64,000 nt of DNA, taken from positions 930,001 through 994,000 of the forward strand of contig NC_090770.1 in assembly GCF_001761485.1 (NCBI RefSeq), in the 5' to 3' direction. Shown one piece after another: positions 33,817 to 42,375 of this stretch. Positions within the stretch are counted from its first letter, which is position 1. Every line of letters starts with the position of its first letter. The DNA comes from Yarrowia lipolytica (taxonomy: Eukaryota > Ascomycota > Dipodascomycetes > Dipodascales). The notes under the pieces are model-generated. The model saw only the letters and a list, made by a program, of their open reading frames with translations, was not told where the DNA came from and ran no database searches. Both the position numbers and the translations under genes were made by a program.

Positions 33817-34880
33817 ATGGACGCTATCACATCTATGGGATCCAGCTCAGTAAGTATGAGACCCCTGCGTTTTCGCATCCCAACTTTTACTAACTACAGC
33901 TGTCTGGCCTGTCTGAACGGTTCAACCTCGAGCGACTAAGAGTGAGTATCATCAAGGAGATGGGCATGGTGAAATTAATACGAGACTATCGCGAAGTCTC
34001 AAAAAGAGATGGTATTGAGAATAAACGGAAGCGTTATTGATGTACGTTCAATGCTGTTGAAATTTGTCTCACAACGCGACCGTAATCCACCGTGATGAGG
34101 CTTGCCCAAATCTGTGTGGACTGTGAGACGAAGATGGTCATCCCGTGCTCGACTCTTTGTTGTAAGCAGAATGTGACGCACTTAAGCATATGGCGCTAAA
34201 CCTGAGAATCCTCAGTGACGTGAAGAAGTCTAGAGGGTGCGCGACTGTGAGCGACCATCGAACACGTCCTTGAGCCAGCGCGATGATAGCGACCCCTACG
34301 TGTCTCACGTTATTGAAAACATTGGTGTGCCTCTAGTACTCTGAGGTACCATCACCCGCGAGCATATGGAGGCGAAGGGAATTCTCTGGATCTGCGCTTT
34401 CTGAGCTTTGGACTAACACAGACTGAGGGCGCGAATCTCCAGAACCGATTTGCCAATCTCAAGTCCCCCACCGACTTCTTCGATTTCCGACGAATTTCCA
34501 AGCCCCCGACCTGGGGCGAAGCTCAAGCTCGAATCAACTTCAACCTGGGATACTTCAGCACCAACTATGCCATCATTTTCGGTCTCCTTTCTCTCTATTC
34601 TCTCCTCACCAACTGGCTGCTGCTGTTTGTTATCGGTTTTGTTTTCCTTGGTCTGTACGGAATTTCGTTTCTTGGAGGATCTGACCTCAACCTTGGCTTC
34701 ACGACTCTTACTTCCTCCCAGCTTTACACTGGTCTCATGATTGTCGCCATTCCCCTTGGATTCTTCGCCTCTCCTATCAGCACTGTGCTTTGGATTGTTG
34801 GCTCTTCTGGTTTCCTCATCCTTGGCCATGCTGCCCTGCTCGAGAAGCCCATCGAGTCAGCCTTTGAGGAGACCGTCTAA
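33817..34880 (+). CDS. YIP3: PRA1/Yip3-family membrane protein, three exons
   Basis: A prenylated-Rab-acceptor (PRA1) protein of ER-Golgi membranes, 177 residues after splicing. I read exon 1 as 33817-33849, intron 33850-33899 (GTAAGT...CTAACTACAG), exon 2 as 33900-33941, intron 33942-34421 (GTGAGT...CTAACACAG) and exon 3 as 34422-34880, all in phase 0. The product starts MDAITSMGSSS, continues LSGLSERFNLERLR and TEGANLQNRFANLKSPTDF, and has the family block RARINFNLGYFSTNYA (as QARINFNLGYFSTNYA here). Four hydrophobic segments lie at roughly 75-95, 95-112, 133-150 and 152-168. S. cerevisiae Yip3 is 176 residues. Intron 2 is large (480 nt) with no certain content. Confidence 0.88.
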
Positions 34881-35339
34881 TTAGGTAACGGTTGTGTGGG
34901 TGAAATGGTGGAGAGAACAGTTAAAATGTAAACTAATAGAACGTGGGATTCATCCCACAAGTACCCTGTATAACCTGCTGTGTAAGCTATAGGGATATGA
35001 CTGTTGATAAAAACACCATGATGAAGTGCCGTTGTATGTATCGTACTCGTAGTAATGTACATATTGGTGTTATTCGTTGTGTCATGTACCCGTACAGTCC
35101 GTGAATTAGACATGAGATAGTTCATGTTGGATATTTGCGCTCTACTGTACGAGTACAAGTACTTCAGGTGTTTGTATGACGCTCGCAGAACAACTCCTTG
35201 TATGAAAAATACGTATTGGTGAGTACCTTGTAAAAGTAACTACTAATTACAGTAATAGTGTTCAGTAGACGGGACATCTGTATTGTGCAAACTACATCGT
35301 ATCAAAGTAGTTCTGCACTTCAATGAGCGTTATGATATA
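34881..35339. other. Spacer between YIP3 and the snoRNA host gene
   Basis: Holds the 3' ends of YIP3 and, converging, of the minus-strand host gene. GTAC words at 35040-35165. No other feature seen. Confidence 0.45.
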
Positions 35340-35415
35340 TATCTCCAGTCTCAGCGCGTAACGAACTCATCACTCTCTGGGGTTAGTATATTTCAAACGA
35401 CGGAACAAATAACTA

Positions 35416-35512
35416 AGAATATCAGCTCCACGCCTAGTCACAGGCAGATTATCATCAAGGCCCTTTCGGGGCACAGTAGACCGTCGTGATTGTGGTAAAT
35501 CATCATCCAATT
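35416..35512 (-). ncRNA. snR73: C/D-box snoRNA 6, snR73-like (25S Cm2959)
   Basis: C box ATGATGA at 35506-35500, D'-like CTGT at 35476-35473, C'-like TGATGA at 35457-35452 and D box CTGA at 35425-35422. The guide CACGACGGTCTA pairs 12 nt with UAGACCGUCGUG of 25S rRNA and puts the C of GAC at the fifth position, the yeast Cm2959 site of snR73. Lies in host intron 5 (35535-35377). Confidence 0.85.
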
Positions 35513-35549
35513 GTCGCAAAGTTAATAATACTCACCAATTTGTTGATCA

Positions 35550-35633
35550 CGGTTAGTCAGACGTAAGAAAATTTTTCTCCACTTGAGAGTCAGACATATG
35601 CTTGTCATTTTTCTGAAATCATCATTCTAACCG
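35550..35633 (-). ncRNA. snR74: C/D-box snoRNA 5, snR74-like (18S Am28), exonic
   Basis: An 84-nt snoRNA with a perfect 7-bp terminal stem CGGTTAG (35633-35627) and CTAACCG (35556-35550), C box ATGATGA at 35625-35619, D' CTGA at 35593-35590 and D CTGA at 35560-35557. The guide GACAAGCATATG before D' pairs 12 nt with CAUAUGCUUGUC of 18S rRNA, placing A28 at the fifth position, exactly the snR74 target. No acceptor AG lies between it and the next donor at 35535, so it appears to sit in an exon. Confidence 0.88.
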
Positions 35634-35729
35634 ATTCTAAGGGTGTTGTAGGCATTGTCGTCTGATGACTACGAGGAATAAACCTGGGTTAGTTGAGCTC
35701 ATGCATTGATACGATCTTCAAAGAGACCA

Positions 35730-35820
35730 TCATTTCAGAAGGCATGAATGGTATTAAAAGTTTGTATCGTCAAGGGGAAGCCCCATTCTGACTCGTCATC
35801 TAGGGAATCATCATATAAGG
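35730..35820 (-). ncRNA. snR76: C/D-box snoRNA 4, snR76-like (25S near C2197)
   Basis: C box ATGATGA at 35814-35808 and D box CTGA at 35738-35735. The first guide TAGATGACGAG pairs 11 nt with CUCGUCAUCUA of 25S rRNA, the snR76 target region (C2197); its D' box is degenerate (CAGA). A second guide CCATTCATGC before the D box pairs 10 nt with GCAUGAAUGG, about 20 nt further along the same rRNA. Lies in host intron 4. Confidence 0.8.
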
Positions 35821-35941
35821 TGGACGGACTGAGCGAAACGTCTGTAAATACTCACGTTTAGGAATTGGGTTGGAACGAAGAATGTATTAACTGAGGTTAG
35901 TACATGTGTGATAACAACTCGAAAGCACACCCGACACACAA

Positions 35942-36052
35942 TAATTTGCTATTGTTCTGTCAGTGAACGAGGGTTTTCTAGGCCCTCTTTAAGCTTGTCA
36001 CTCATTATTTTTCGGTGCCCAGTGCTATGGTTCATCATGTTGCAAATAATAA
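35942..36052 (-). ncRNA. C/D-box snoRNA 3 (host intron 3)
   Basis: C box ATGATGA at 36038-36032 and D box CTGA at 35963-35960, closed by ATTTGC (36047-36042) pairing with GCAAAT (35949-35944). The nucleotides before the D box, CGTTCA(C), could pair with GUGAACG of 25S rRNA near yeast C663 (snR58 site), but the match is only 7 nt, so the target is tentative. Confidence 0.65.
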
Positions 36053-36116
36053 TGAGAGCGTGAAACATACCTGGAGTTAGTAATGTGGTTGAAGGGATAG
36101 ACTTCATTTCTGTTCA

Positions 36117-36206
36117 CAGATCAGTAAAGCAGCAACTTGTTATCTAACATGGAAAAGAGTACATTCAGTCGGTAATTCCAACTTAAAGTAGTAATCATCA
36201 TATGAT
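36117..36206 (-). ncRNA. snR77: C/D-box snoRNA 2, snR77-like (18S Um578)
   Basis: C box ATGATGA at 36201-36195, D' box CTGA at 36168-36165 and D box CTGA at 36124-36121. The guide TGGAATTACCG just before D' pairs 11 nt with CGGUAAUUCCA of 18S rRNA. The fifth nucleotide upstream of D' pairs with the U of CGGU, the position methylated in yeast at U578 by snR77 (human SNORD65 site). Lies in host intron 2. Confidence 0.85.
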
Positions 36207-36499
36207 GGGTGTGCAAATAGCAGGATGTACTTACCATTTGGTTTGTAGTTGGAACAGTCGGAGTCAGTCGGCTGCGTTATGGCTACGGTGCTGAACACTT
36301 GGCAGCCGTGTACCGGGTATTAGGTCCATACATCGACCTCTGTCGAGGTCAACGGATAGGCCACGAGCCCATGGTACCGGTCATCGTCCATTGTGTTGCT
36401 AGCGTGTAATCACACGTAGGACTGTGTTTGGATAAGGTATCTCAGTATCTTCTGTCCTAATGTTAGTAATTGATATGGGAAATGTCGCGAGAGCAATCA

Positions 36500-36588
36500 A
36501 AAAGTCAGACTGACATGCAAAAAACGTTGTGATCATAAATTGCTTCACATACTCTAGTTTGATTGGTTTGTTGGATCATCACATGCTG
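36500..36588 (-). ncRNA. C/D-box snoRNA 1 (host intron 1)
   Basis: C box GTGATGA at 36582-36576 and D box CTGA at 36508-36505. The segment after the C box contains TCAAACTAGAGT, complementary over 12 nt to ACUCUAGUUUGA, a conserved stretch of eukaryotic 25S/28S rRNA near yeast position 2330-2345. The D' box is not clear, so the exact target is left open. Ends are approximate. Confidence 0.65.
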
Positions 36589-36623
36589 TCCGTGGTGTTT
36601 GTGTACTCACTGTTCGTAGTGTG

Positions 36624-36669
36624 AGGGGGTGGCATCTTCCATGAAAAACATGGAAGACACCTACCCCTA
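36624..36669 (-). other. Stable hairpin in exon 1 of the host gene
   Basis: Read on the minus strand, CTTCCATG-TTTTT-CATGGAAG forms a perfect 8-bp core. It extends with wobble and Watson-Crick pairs to a GGGG/CCCC base, about 18 bp in all, and ends just before the first donor site. It could be a processing signal (for example for an RNase III) or a chance structure. Confidence 0.5.
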
Positions 36670-36810
36670 GAGTTGGGTATCACGTGGATATCGTTGCGTA
36701 TGTGTCCGGTGACGCCATTTTGTCGCTAGGCTGATGTGTTCCGTGTTGTCGTTCTTGTGCTCGTAGCACGAGTGTTGGGTAGAAAGAAAACTTTTTCTGA
36801 GCTATACTAA

Positions 36811-36816
36811 TTTATA
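36811..36816 (-). promoter_or_regulatory. TATA box of the snoRNA host gene
   Basis: TATAAA on the minus strand in the context GAGTATAAATTAG, about 200 bp upstream of the first donor site. An AACCCTACCC word slightly further upstream resembles the Tbf1-type motif seen near snoRNA and ribosomal protein genes in yeasts. Confidence 0.5.
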
Positions 36817-36829
36817 CTCTCAGTCCGGA

Positions 36830-39390
36830 GTTGCGAAGGGTAGGGTTGTACTGTTACCCGGTGTTGGGTTGTACCTGAACTACTATGGCAGACCCATAAA
36901 TAAGGTTGTCTTGACACAACCGTGGCTACTCGCCTATATTACAAGTCAGTGAAAAGGGGGGAAGCAGCGAATCTGTTTACTTCTAATCACACAAAAGACC
37001 CTGGGGTATAATGATTGGTGCTTGGTAATTGCTGTACTTGTAGAGGCTAAACTACAAGTACTGTTGTATGATGTCTCCTATAAGTACAGTATGTACTATG
37101 TACAAGTACATACAGTACCTTAAGTACTTGTACTTGGGGCACTGGACATATGGAGGAGGATTAACATCCGTAAACGAAGACACAACTACATGTACATACT
37201 TGTACACCAGTTCAGCTCATAAGACTGCAGTACTTGTAGTTCCAAGCACCTACTTGTACTTGTACAACTTGTACACGAAAAAATTCTGTGCACCACAAAA
37301 GGAACAGGGCAACTAACTACAATACGAGTACAACTCTGTACTTCCATCGTAGTCAGCTAAGCACAAGTACTCGCACCCCTACTTCTAGCTACACCTGTGC
37401 AGAAACTACTTAGTGATTTTTAAATTGACCTAGGTCGAAACAAAGTTTCGCGAATAATGACATTGGCATGCATGCCGGGATCGGCCGATGGCCCGGGTAC
37501 AGTGCAATAGTTGTCATTGGAAAGAGGTTGGAAAGCACGGTAAGGAGCCCAATTACATACAGTCAGTGACACCACATAGGTTGCACACATTATTCTGTAC
37601 AGTACCTGTATGTGGGAATGTCCCCAGGCTCATCGAGTTTACTCTTCTTCACAACCCCACAGGGTTATCATAGAATGGATAGCATTAGCTAAGGAGGCCA
37701 CACCCGAATGAAAGCGGCTACTCATCAAGGCTACAAGTAGGTGTATTCCCGATTGTACAATACGGCTCGTTTCTGAGATCAATATTGTATAGCGATCGCA
37801 AGGTCAGATCCTCGGTCCAGCCAAATTAAGGTTCCGAGGATATACTTCTGATTTTGGTACCGTACTGACGAAAAAGGAAAGGATGAGTATCGGTACAAGT
37901 ACACTGTATGTACTGGATACTCATACGGATTAGTAACGCCATTGTAAGGATATATCTACTAGGTTGGTAGTCTCTAGAGGGTTAGTTTTTTGCTTGACTG
38001 ATGTTACGAACAAGTTCATCGAAGACATACCTGAAGAGCGACTGATTTCATGAATAAGTTGTGCCGTTTCTACTTGTAGGAACTGTGTCACATAATTGCC
38101 TTATATAGATACAACCCTAACCACTACACATACTGTACGTTGTAACTATCCTTACAGCTATTCTATCATTTGAATGCATGTTAATGTCAAATTCGAGTTT
38201 ATCATTCTCCTTGTGATATAGGCATGGTCTTATGGATTCACATTTCCTCGAATTTACAATCAATTGTCACTACCATGGCGGTTCGTCCAATGCTTCAAAG
38301 GCAACCACAACCACGAAGGTTAATGTAAGACTTTCTCTGGATGATTTTCATCGGTTGCATTGAAGGGACAACTTTTTATTAATACTGGACTACATGTACG
38401 ATATAGTAGCCAACTACAAGTACGAGTAGAAGTCATCCCTGTGAAGACACGAACATATTTTTTACTGGATAAGGGTTCACCTGTTGATAAATCGAAATGG
38501 ATTTAGTTCATACCATACCAAAAGAGGTGTAGCACACTGCGAGGTCAGGACATCCATGTGATGTGGTCACACATCTTACTGCTGCCTTTGATACACTCGA
38601 CAAATAATCCACCCAAAGCAAACGGACAGAACGCAATCCAGAAAAGATGGAATCGACTAATAAGAAAGAGGCAACCAACAATCGCGAACTAATATTGACC
38701 AACAAAACAATCGGCGACTCCCCCTACAATAACCTAAACTACGAAATTTCCTGTACTGTGCTTTTTTTTTTTGTACACACTGTGCTTGTAGTTGTGCTTG
38801 TCTGTAATTTACTCAACTGCAGCATTTCTTCCTGGGGTACTTGAACCATGTGCGCCTGTGTGCGGCTATTGGCGCGACCATAGATTGAAATCAGGAGGGG
38901 AGGAGGGAAATATCTGAGCCACGTATCGCAATGCCCTATAATTAATCATACCTGATTTTGGCACATATGTTTCCATCACCGCGTAACTCGAATACGAATT
39001 TGTCAGTGCTTCAGACACGTACTATTCGTCAGGTTGTTCTGCAAAGTGTACAGACAGATCCCGAGCTTAGTTCTGCACACCTATGCGAAATAAACTTCGG
39101 GAGATAACAAGATGATGGAGAGAAGTTGCCGTGTAGCAATGATGAACAACACGATTTCATCTCATCATAAGTTCACCTTAAATCACAATTGTTCAAAGGA
39201 TAACAAGAACCCCCTTCTCTTTGACTCACTTGGCATTACAGATTTAATTTGTCATGAACATGGAACCACCTCTATCGTCACTCTTCATCATACTCAGTGA
39301 TTTGTGTCACAATCACTGAGTCAAACCTAAAAGAAATATATATACACTGAGTCCCTTCTACGGCGAGATTCAGCCAACCTAACCACAAAA
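36830..39390. other. 2.5 kb spacer upstream of GCV2
   Basis: No gene supported. Dense GTAC/TACTTGTA words at 37030-37280 and scattered later. The GCV2-proximal 170 bp hold TGACTCA and TGAGTCA sites and a palindrome listed separately. Confidence 0.5.
39222..39344 (+). promoter_or_regulatory. GCV2 promoter: TGACTC sites, 11-bp inverted repeat and TATA
   Basis: TGACTCA occurs near 39223-39229. A perfect 11-bp inverted repeat, ACTCAGTGATT (39292-39302) and AATCACTGAGT (39311-39321), overlaps a second site TGAGTCA (39317-39323), then ATATATATA at 39335-39344. TGACTC is the core bound by Gcn4 and Bas1, which control glycine-cleavage genes in S. cerevisiae, so similar control here is likely. Confidence 0.6.
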
Positions 39391-42375
39391 ATGCTACGAA
39401 CCCTCAACCGGACAAGTCGTATCTTGCGACTGTCGGCCACAAAAACCCGATTTGGATCCACATTTTCAGCAGCAACACGACCTCTGGACACTTATCTTCG
39501 ACGACATGTTGGTAGCGAATCTGCAGATGTGAACAAGATGCTCCGAGCTCTAGATTACGCTACTGCCGAGTCAGCTATGGACAGCTTCGTGTCAGATGTC
39601 GTTCCCCCCAATGTTCTGACCAAGCGACCTCTTGCTGTCAAGCCCACACAAGGTTTCTCTGAATCTGAGCTGACCAGCCGGTTGGGAGAGATTGCTTCCA
39701 AAAACAAGGTCTTCAAGTCCTATATCGGAAAGGGCTATGTCGGAACTGTTGTTCCACCCGTCATCCAGCGAAATGTTCTCGAGAACCCCCTCTGGTACAC
39801 CTCATACACACCCTACCAGCCTGAGATCAGTCAGGGTCGTCTGGAGTCACTCCTGAACTACCAGACCGTTATTACTGAGCTCACCGGAATGGCAGTTGCC
39901 AACGCTTCTCTTCTTGACGAGGGTACTGCGGCATCGGAGGCCGTTACAATGGCATTCAACGCTTTCAAGGGCAAGCGAGGCATTTTCCTTGTTGACAAGA
40001 ACGTTCATCCCCAGACCATTGCTGTTGTCCAGTCTCGAAGTGTAGCTCTTGACGTCGACGTCAAGGTTGTCGACGTGTCTGATCTCTCCAACGGCAAGTC
40101 TGAGAGCCCTATTGACCAGGTCTGCGGTGTTCTAGTGCAATACCCAACCACGGACGGTTCCATTGTCGATTACCAGAAGCTCAGCGACACCCTCAAGGGT
40201 GAGGGCAACGGTAGCCTGCTGTGCGTTGCCGCTGACCTTCTGGCCCTCACCCTTCTCAAGCCTCCTTCCGATTTCGGTGCCGACATTGTTCTCGGTACCT
40301 CCCAGCGATTTGGTGTCCCCATGGGTTACGGTGGACCTCATGCTGCTTACTTTGCTGTTGCCGATGGCCAGCACCGAAAGATGCCAGGACGACTTATTGG
40401 CATGTCCCGTGATCGACTTGGCGGCGAGGCTTATCGACTGGCCCTCCAGACTCGTGAGCAACACATTCGAAGAGAGAAGGCGACCTCTAACATCTGCACA
40501 GCCCAGGCTCTCCTTGCCAACATGAGCGCATTCTACGCTATCTACCATGGACCTGAGGGCCTTCGGAAGATCGCCGAGCGTGTCAACCTGCTCACCTCCA
40601 TCCTTGCCACTGCCGTTGAAGCCAAGGGCGTTAAGGTCGAGAACAAGCACTTCTTTGACACTCTCACCCTGCAGGTTCAGGATGCCAACAAGGTCATTTC
40701 TGCAGCTGAGGCCAAGGAGATCAACCTTTACAAGCTTGACGATAAGACCGTTTCTCTGACTCTCGATGAGACCGTCACTCACGGTGATCTTGTCAACCTT
40801 GCATCGGTTTTTGGCGTTTCTGAGGCTGACTTGGAGTCTGCTGCTGATAATGTCACCAACAGTATTCCCTCTGATATGCTGCGAACTGATAAGTACATGC
40901 AGCACGATGTGTTCAACAAGTACCATTCAGAGACCGAGCTTCTTCGATATATGAAGCATCTTCAGTCAAAGGATCTGTCTCTCGCCGATGCTATGATTCC
41001 TCTGGGTAGTTGCACAATGAAGCTTAACGCCACCACTCAGATGGCACCCATCACCTGGCCTGAATTTGGCCAGCTTCATCCCTTTGTTCCTCTCAACCAG
41101 GCTCAGGGCTACAAGGAGCTTTTGATCGAGCTTGAGGATGATCTTGCGGACATTACCGGTTTCGATCGAATGTCTCTGCAGCCCAACTCTGGTGCTCAGG
41201 GTGAGTACACCGGCCTACGAGTCATCCGTGCCTACCTTGAGTCTCAGGGCCAGGGCCACCGAAACATCTGTCTGATCCCTGTCTCTGCTCACGGTACCAA
41301 CCCAGCTTCTGCTGTGATGTCAGGCATGAAGGTTGTCGCTGTCAAGTGTAAGAAGGATGGTGAGCTTGATCTCGTCGATCTTGCTGCCAAGGCTGAGAAG
41401 CATAAGGATAACCTGGCTGCGTTCATGGTCACTTATCCTTCCACTTTCGGTGTTTTCGAGCCTGGTGTCAAGGAGGCGATTGATATTGTTCACAAGAATG
41501 GCGGACAGGTATACATGGACGGTGCCAACATGAACGCTCAGATCGGTCTGACCTCCCCTGGTGAGATGGGTGCTGATGTGTGCCATCTCAACCTCCACAA
41601 GACCTTCTGCATCCCCCACGGCGGTGGTGGACCTGGCATGGGCCCTATTGGTGTCAAGTCTCACCTGGCTCCTTTCTTGCCTGCTCACCCCGTTGTTGAG
41701 ATGAGCGAGGTTACAGGCCTTTCTACAGAGAAGTCAATTCAGCCTGTTTCTGCTGCACCCTTTGGATCTGCTTCTATCCTCCCCATCTCCTGGGCTTACA
41801 TTAAGCTGATGGGTGCTACCGGACTGCTCAAGGCCACTGAAATCGCTCTCCTTAACGCCAACTACATGAAGAAGCGACTTGAGCCCCATTACCCTATTCT
41901 CTACACCAACAACAAAGACAAGTGCGCTCATGAGTTCATCCTTGACATGCGACCTTTCAAGGCATCGTCTGGAATCGAGGCTATTGATATTGCTAAGCGT
42001 CTCCAGGATTACTCTTTCCACGGTCCCACCATGTCCTGGCCTGTTGCCAACACTCTTATGGTCGAGCCCACTGAGTCTGAGTCTCTAGCAGAGCTTGACC
42101 GATTCTGTGATGCTCTGATTTCCATCCGACAGGAGATCAAGGAGATTGAGGACGGCAAGATTCCCCGGGAGAACAACGTCCTCAAGAACTCCCCCCATCC
42201 TCAACAGGACCTTTTGGCCGAGACTTGGGATCGACCCTACACCAGAGAGCAGGCTGCTTATCCCGTAGCTAGCCTTCGAGAGAAGAAGTTCTGGCCGTCA
42301 GTTGCTAGAGTAGATGATACCTTTGGTGATCTCAACTTGTTCTGCACCTGTGAACCTCCCGCTCTCGAGGAGTAG
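39391..42375 (+). CDS. GCV2: Glycine decarboxylase P subunit, mitochondrial
   Basis: A 994-residue pyridoxal-phosphate enzyme of the glycine cleavage system. It releases CO2 from glycine and passes the aminomethyl group to the H protein in the mitochondrial matrix, feeding folate one-carbon units. An Arg/Ser/Thr-rich presequence covers about residues 1-30 ([20 protein letters not shown]). The two tandem aminotransferase-like halves characteristic of eukaryotic P protein follow. The cofactor lysine is Lys737 in [18 protein letters not shown], and the glycine-rich loop follows directly. Length agrees with S. cerevisiae Gcv2 (1034). Strong CGA codon bias marks high expression. The promoter carries Bas1/Gcn4-type sites. 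Confidence 0.97.

Follow-up and report, generated by a model that had tools for sequence, protein, structure and literature searches.

How are the C/D snoRNAs encoded between the YIP3 and GCV2 genes of Yarrowia lipolytica produced: from a spliced host RNA, or from an intronless precursor cut by RNase III, as in Saccharomyces cerevisiae? The question concerns the minus strand at 36785-35340 of a 64-kb window (the whole stretch of DNA analyzed, 64,000 nt), where a first-pass annotation had placed a non-coding host gene with five introns. The flanking genes that it named are right by family: a PRA1 family gene (YIP3) on the plus strand, with its frame ending at 34877, and a glycine dehydrogenase gene (GCV2) on the plus strand, starting at 39391. 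We conclude that this stretch is very probably snoRNA cluster I (snR72-78) of Y. lipolytica. Its single predicted transcript is likely non-coding and has five predicted introns, each with a C/D snoRNA that splicing, debranching of the lariat and trimming by exonucleases are predicted to release; snR74 lies in a predicted exon. The boxes, the pairing of the guides, the splice signals, the snoRNA order, the zero-length exon and the snR74 stem can be read in the sequence itself, whereas transcription, splicing, release and methylation are predicted from it. The features are, in the direction of transcription:

36811..36860 (-): predicted promoter core, from sequence motifs (CGGGTAA at 36860-36854, AACCCTA at 36847-36841, TATAAA at 36816-36811)
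36611..36785 (-): exon 1, with the putative start at 36785 taken from the first-pass annotation, 31 nt past the first base of TATAAA; fold z -3.20
36626..36667 (-): exon-1 hairpin, 18 pairs, loop TTTTT, with a stem sequence shared with a second locus, L013
36457..36610 (-): intron 1, GTGAGT...ACTAACATTAG
36505..36586 (-): snR78/72 double guide, D' to 25S U2421 and D to 25S A876 (sub-cut-off Rfam snR78 match, snoZ122 likeness, pairing)
36547..36552 (-): GTATGT in snR78/72 that might serve as another 5' splice site (giving a 96-nt intron), from sequence
36235..36456 (-): exon 2, 222 nt; fold z -2.43
36071..36234 (-): intron 2, GTAAGT...ACTAACTCCAG
36113..36203 (-): snR77, D' to 18S U578 (sub-cut-off Rfam snoR77Y match, pairing)
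36070..36071 (-): intron-intron boundary CAG/GTATGT, a zero-length exon
35891..36070 (-): intron 3, GTATGT...ACTAACCTCAG
35956..36046 (-): snR76, D' to 25S C2197 (Rfam match above cut-off, pairing)
35856..35890 (-): 35-nt exon
35684..35855 (-): intron 4, GTGAGT...ACTAACCCAG
35733..35816 (-): snR75, D' to 25S G2288 (Rfam match above cut-off, pairing)
35536..35683 (-): 148-nt exon containing snR74
35550..35633 (-): snR74 (SNORD27 family), D' to 18S A28, 7-bp terminal stem (Rfam match above cut-off, pairing, stem)
35377..35535 (-): intron 5, GTGAGT...ACTAACCCCAG
35420..35510 (-): snR73, D' to 25S C2959 (Rfam match above cut-off, pairing)
35340..35376 (-): beginning of the last exon, as follows from intron 5

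The six C/D snoRNAs lie on one strand in the order snR78-77-76-75-74-73, which becomes 78/72-77-76-75-74-73, the order of cluster I, when the double guide is counted. Four of them scored above the Rfam gathering score (snR75, snR76, snR73, and SNORD27, the family of snR74); the other two fell below it, namely snoR77Y (34.9 bits against a cut-off of 52, E 0.00037) and snR78 (31.8 bits against 48, E 0.028, or 0.0019 when scanned alone). Despite these scores, snR77 and snR78 occupy their expected places in the cluster and possess boxes and guides. Degenerate boxes are three D' boxes (GTGA, CCGA, and CAGA) and the CTGT of snR73.

Guide pairing was assessed against seven short pieces of presumed S. 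cerevisiae rRNA sequence. The rRNA site numbers and the assignments of snoRNAs to sites are likewise presumed ones, but a Neurospora crassa table lists homologous sites for snR72, snR74, snR75, snR76, snR77, and snR78 (PMC2780460). All seven guides pair through position +5, each with the expected residue, and all seven sites of the cluster I guide set are covered with these presumed targets: snR78/72 pairs with 25S U2421 through its D' guide (12 bp) and with 25S A876 through its D guide (12 positions, one wobble), snR77 with 18S U578 (14 positions, one wobble), snR76 with 25S C2197 (11), snR75 with 25S G2288 through its D' guide (11), snR74 with 18S A28 (12), and snR73 with 25S C2959 (13). The four guides already read in the first-pass annotation (U578, A28, C2959, and C2197) are among these and hold. 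Shuffled guides equaled the real pairing in 0-2 of 1,000 cases, as measured against the same seven pieces and not against whole rRNA. The D guides of snR77, snR76, snR74, and snR73 matched the rRNA pieces no better than shuffles did. The D guide of snR75 (35738-35756, minus strand) has a second 10-bp match near G2288, and it sits one base closer to box D than the Rfam consensus has it.

The snoRNA in intron 1 carries two guides, a feature that the first-pass annotation had missed. Its D guide resembles that of snoZ122 (Rfam 20.7 bits against a cut-off of 38), and the A876 guide pattern occurs as a single copy in the genome (20,500,066 bases in six contigs searched), in intron 1. A separate snR72 was sought in the stretch and rejected, as there was no Rfam match and the sole genomic A876 guide pattern is that of intron 1. 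An snR78/72 hybrid has been named for Y. lipolytica and filamentous fungi by Luo et al. (2013; PMC3596301), and by its guides the intron-1 snoRNA is that hybrid. Because it is a double guide, six snoRNAs would cover all seven sites targeted in S. cerevisiae.

A conserved 18S pattern had no match in the genome assembly, from which the rDNA seems to be missing, and the search for rRNA targets was extended to viral and prokaryote contigs. Among the viral contigs, one carries a 25S fragment, and four other rRNA patterns gave no match there; the prokaryote contigs include five rRNA-like, contaminant-like loci (L004-L008). The G2288 target is present on all five of these loci and the C2959 stretch on L002, whereas the C2197 target was not found on these rRNA-like loci. 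Eukaryotic LSU was recognized at the Rfam cut-off in L002 and, among L004-L008, in L005 alone. These loci were fetched with patterns containing the G2288 or C2959 targets, and thus confirm only that the letters of the presumed pieces occur in real DNA.

Five of the six snoRNAs are enclosed by consensus introns (154, 164, 180, 172, and 159 nt for introns 1-5), as judged by splice signals and as in spliced non-coding snoRNA hosts of the UHG type. The 5' splice sites are GTGAGT, GTAAGT, GTATGT, GTGAGT, and GTGAGT, and the branch site ACTAAC sits 1-2 nt ahead of YAG in the cluster introns. The 1,446-nt stretch contains five such signal pairs, compared with a mean of 0.012 and a maximum of two in 1,000 dinucleotide shuffles, which bears out the five introns first proposed on this strand. 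Across the 64-kb window, strict intron signal pairs number six on the minus strand (five of them in the cluster stretch) and two on the plus strand. The remaining minus-strand pair is located at 37974-38133, between the cluster and GCV2, where it belongs to no assigned gene. In a published survey, canonical Y. lipolytica introns begin with GTGAGT (73.0%), GTAAGT (5.9%) or GTATGT (2.2%), and ACTAAC is the commonest branch site (67.5%) (PMC13309789); the cluster introns fit this description.

The spliced sense RNA is without a long open reading frame, again as in UHG-like hosts: its longest ATG frames are of 32 aa, and none of five frames tested, in the stretch or 3' of it, matched Pfam at cut-off, the one weak match being to PH_alsin (13.1 bits against a cut-off of 40). 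In keeping with the first-pass annotation, the gene is likely non-coding. Upstream of the putative start, TATAAA is accompanied by AACCCTA, which we take to be Tbf1-like, and CGGGTAA, which we take to be Reb1-like; these motifs are not rare, with 23, 10, and six copies, respectively, on both strands of the window. The fold of exon 2 (z -2.43, equaled by 1 of 200 shuffles) raised the possibility of an H/ACA snoRNA, which was rejected as Rfam gave no match there at E values up to 1. At 35268-35371 (minus strand), in the last exon, there are a C-box-like GTGATGA and CTGA motifs that are probably due to chance; Rfam gave no match for them.

Introns 2 and 3 abut, which had also escaped the first-pass annotation: intron 2 ends in ACTAACTCCAG and GTATGT of intron 3 starts on the very next base, which is the sequence arrangement expected for recursive splicing. 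Given the zero-length exon, the junctions 36234/36071 and 36070/35891 leave a single junction in the final RNA, from 36235 to 35890. On the basis of the shared CAG/GTATGT boundary, we propose that the two introns would be removed stepwise: once intron 2 had been spliced out, exon 2 would be followed immediately by the 5' splice site of intron 3. The count of such boundaries is not above chance, given that the genome contains two matches to a strict pattern (ACTAAC-N(1-4)-YAG-GTRWGT) and three to a reversed-pattern control; the other match, in L013 on contig C5, likewise separates two introns that contain C/D-like RNAs. Alternatively, the two introns may leave as one 344-nt intron (36234-35891) with two snoRNAs and with the inner sites little used. 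Such an intron would yield an identical final RNA, and the products of clusters II and III fit either stepwise splicing or alternative acceptor choice according to Luo et al. (PMC3596301). However, the inner boundary has a full branch site with CAG and GTATGT, for which a single large intron would have no need, and recursive splicing is described at the snoRNA introns of another cluster in Candida RNA-seq data (PMC5033589). We therefore regard the single 344-nt intron as possible but on balance unlikely, and retain stepwise removal as the proposed route.

The claim that processing must use splicing and debranching applies, as a deduction, to five of the six snoRNAs; it does not extend to snR74, which is exonic and enclosed by no consensus intron. 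A strong terminal stem is usual for snoRNAs that are not trimmed from a lariat. snR74 has a 7-bp stem (CGGTTAG/CTAACCG, -10.1 kcal/mol) that was equaled by 1% of 300 shuffles, compared with 7-75% of 300 shuffles for the other five snoRNAs. We infer that snR74 is likely shielded within a snoRNP while the spliced exon RNA around it is trimmed away, or else derives from a larger lariat upon exon skipping. Its N. crassa homolog, CD21, is listed as intronic in the table (PMC2780460), which makes the loss of an intron at snR74 plausible in Y. lipolytica. The genome encodes a Dbr1-type protein as well as an Rnt1-like protein of 467 aa.

In the exon-skipping alternative, a 479-nt intron (35855-35377) would carry snR75, snR74, and snR73 together; it would have strong splice sites at both ends, and exon skipping in cluster I has been reported for N. 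crassa (PMC2780460) and, as minor variants, for C. parapsilosis (PMC5033589). The terminal stem of snR74 itself, which suggests independence from an intron, makes this a minority prospect as the source of snR74. RNase III could instead free snR74 via a hairpin whose arms come from two joined exons, the route by which Pac1 releases snoU14 in Schizosaccharomyces pombe, since the cluster I host is mixed (intronic and exonic) like the S. pombe host (PMC12508059) and an Rnt1-like protein is encoded. However, none of the four exon-exon junctions, with flanks of 30, 45, and 60 nt, gave a junction-spanning hairpin that beat shuffles; the sole strong junction fold (exon 1/exon 2, 60 nt, 0 of 200 shuffles) is the exon-1 hairpin, with no pair across the junction. 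A splice-junction hairpin beside snR74 is thus unsupported at all four junctions, and release of the S. pombe type appears distinctly improbable. The most remote reading adopts the S. cerevisiae arrangement, in which RNase III cuts a polycistron that has no introns, and treats the splice signals as relics without a use: the snoRNAs and their order are the same and the Rnt1-like protein is present, but five intact consensus introns hold five of the six snoRNAs, and Luo et al. describe such clusters as spliced except in S. cerevisiae and the species closest to it (PMC3596301). We give this reading almost no credence.

A further possible splice signal lies within snR78/72, namely the GTATGT of 36552-36547, which overlaps the D' region. 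If it were used as a 5' splice site, the snoRNA could be destroyed. C. parapsilosis RNA-seq data include a splice from a GTATGT within snR78, with a viable snR78 judged unlikely (PMC5033589). We would guess that the position of GTATGT is the same in the snR78 of both species.

A hairpin similar to that of exon 1 occurs at a second locus elsewhere in the genome:

G000 C5:2958658-2961674, locus 1115-1675: L013, a likely second snoRNA host with two abutting introns

The C/D-like RNAs of L013 match Rfam snoU61 (E 0.39) and SNORD110 (E 1.6) with scores that fall far short of the cut-offs, and a scan at E 0.1 gave nothing; these matches share the guide blocks CAATCCTCTAAGAAG and TCTGTCAATCCCCTGA. 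One RNA is U61-like and the other SNORD110/snR55-like. L013 may be the Y. lipolytica cluster II of Luo et al., for which RT-PCR products fit stepwise removal or alternative acceptors, although a U61-like RNA is absent from cluster II as they name it (PMC3596301). The first exon of L013, with bounds set in this analysis (fold z -5.38, 0 of 200 shuffles), ends with a 10-bp hairpin whose stem is nearly that of cluster I exon 1; between the two stems, one pair differs in both of its bases (C-G versus T-A), and wobble accounts for two further differences. The hairpin match ends 17 nt before the first 5' splice site in cluster I and 12 nt before it in L013, where that site is GTACGT.

A strict hairpin pattern, written from both hosts, matched only those two places in the genome (control 0). 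Looser patterns matched 38 places (control 24) and eight places (control 8), counts that are little or not above chance. Among the 26 and eight loci fetched, only in the two known hosts was the match followed by a 5' splice site and a branch site, and no third host emerged; seven places among the 38 lacked a locus and lay outside the inspected set. A DNA similarity search with the exon-1 hairpin matched only itself. Of 2,000 shuffles, 30 did as well as the real likeness when the last 70 nt were compared, 89 when exon 1 was compared, and 358 when the promoter was included, and on the letters alone the likeness is modest. Upstream of both hosts there are AACCCTA and CCGGGTAA/TTACCCGG, presumably resembling Tbf1 and Reb1 sites. 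In S. cerevisiae, Tbf1 acts upstream of snoRNA genes (PMC7952879). An MIR7991 Rfam match on the exon-1 hairpin (plus strand, 26.4 bits against a cut-off of 58) was set aside as a chance hairpin match. The loop rule for Rnt1 is AGNN; the loops are TTTTT in cluster I and TCTTCGACT in L013, and for this reason we claim no canonical Rnt1 site in exon 1.

It is conceivable, though doubtful, that the hairpin (GGTGTCTTYC/GRAAGAYRCC followed by ACC, ending 12-17 nt ahead of the first 5' splice site) acts in cis to mark the spliced Yarrowia snoRNA hosts with abutting introns and to regulate them together, coupling splicing or snoRNA release to supply. The GTATGT in snR78/72 would then be the off-switch of cluster I, because its use would destroy a snoRNA serving two rRNA sites. 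The sharing of the exon-1 hairpin by two hosts seems new: a literature search by title and abstract returned no paper on it, a weak negative in that two snoRNA papers (Mitrovich 2010, Canzler 2018) lay outside the search. We regard the hairpin as a small, weak new lead.

Compared with the S. cerevisiae snR72-78 polycistron, reportedly described by Qu et al. in 1999, the Y. lipolytica locus has the same guides and order, whereas the S. cerevisiae cluster is unspliced, cut by RNase III, and composed of seven single snoRNAs. Luo et al. cite Mitrovich et al. (2010) on the spliced fungal cluster I hosts. The first-pass annotation had called the present locus a different expression mode; this is correct when S. 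cerevisiae is the reference, but among fungi the widespread arrangement for this cluster is a spliced host (PMC3596301), and the host-gene reading as a whole is partly supported, in that it fits both sequence and literature. According to Luo et al., cluster I hosts are spliced across fungi, and Y. lipolytica is among the species treated; their cluster I has the same snoRNA set and order, intronic snoRNAs, and no long reading frame, and the two features that they name in Y. lipolytica, the hybrid of snR78 with snR72 and exons that are small or missing, match by comparison of text (PMC3596301). Theirs is most likely the very same locus. The spliced cluster I host of Y. lipolytica is thus already known (PMC3596301), a prior publication absent from the first-pass annotation, and is largely ordinary.

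C. parapsilosis and its relatives likewise have a mixed intronic and exonic non-coding cluster I host with GTATGT inside snR78, but that host has four introns rather than five and a separate snR72, which is fused with snR78 in Y. lipolytica (PMC5033589). The cluster I host of N. crassa also has little coding potential, and its intronic CD5 is a double guide with snR78 at D' and snR72 at D; the snR74 homolog CD21 is intronic there and exonic in Y. lipolytica (PMC2780460). The mamRNA/snoU14 host of S. pombe similarly carries intronic and exonic snoRNAs on one transcript, whereas the Y. lipolytica cluster lacked a junction-spanning hairpin in our test and has an exonic snoRNA followed by an intronic one (PMC12508059). 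With its exact coordinates, the Y. lipolytica locus lends itself to clean tests of recursive splicing and of how an exonic snoRNA is released, in a yeast that is both rich in introns and tractable. With a snoRNA in an exon, an exon lost, and two guides combined in a single snoRNA, the locus looks intermediate between the all-intronic clusters reported for filamentous fungi and the intronless cluster of S. cerevisiae.
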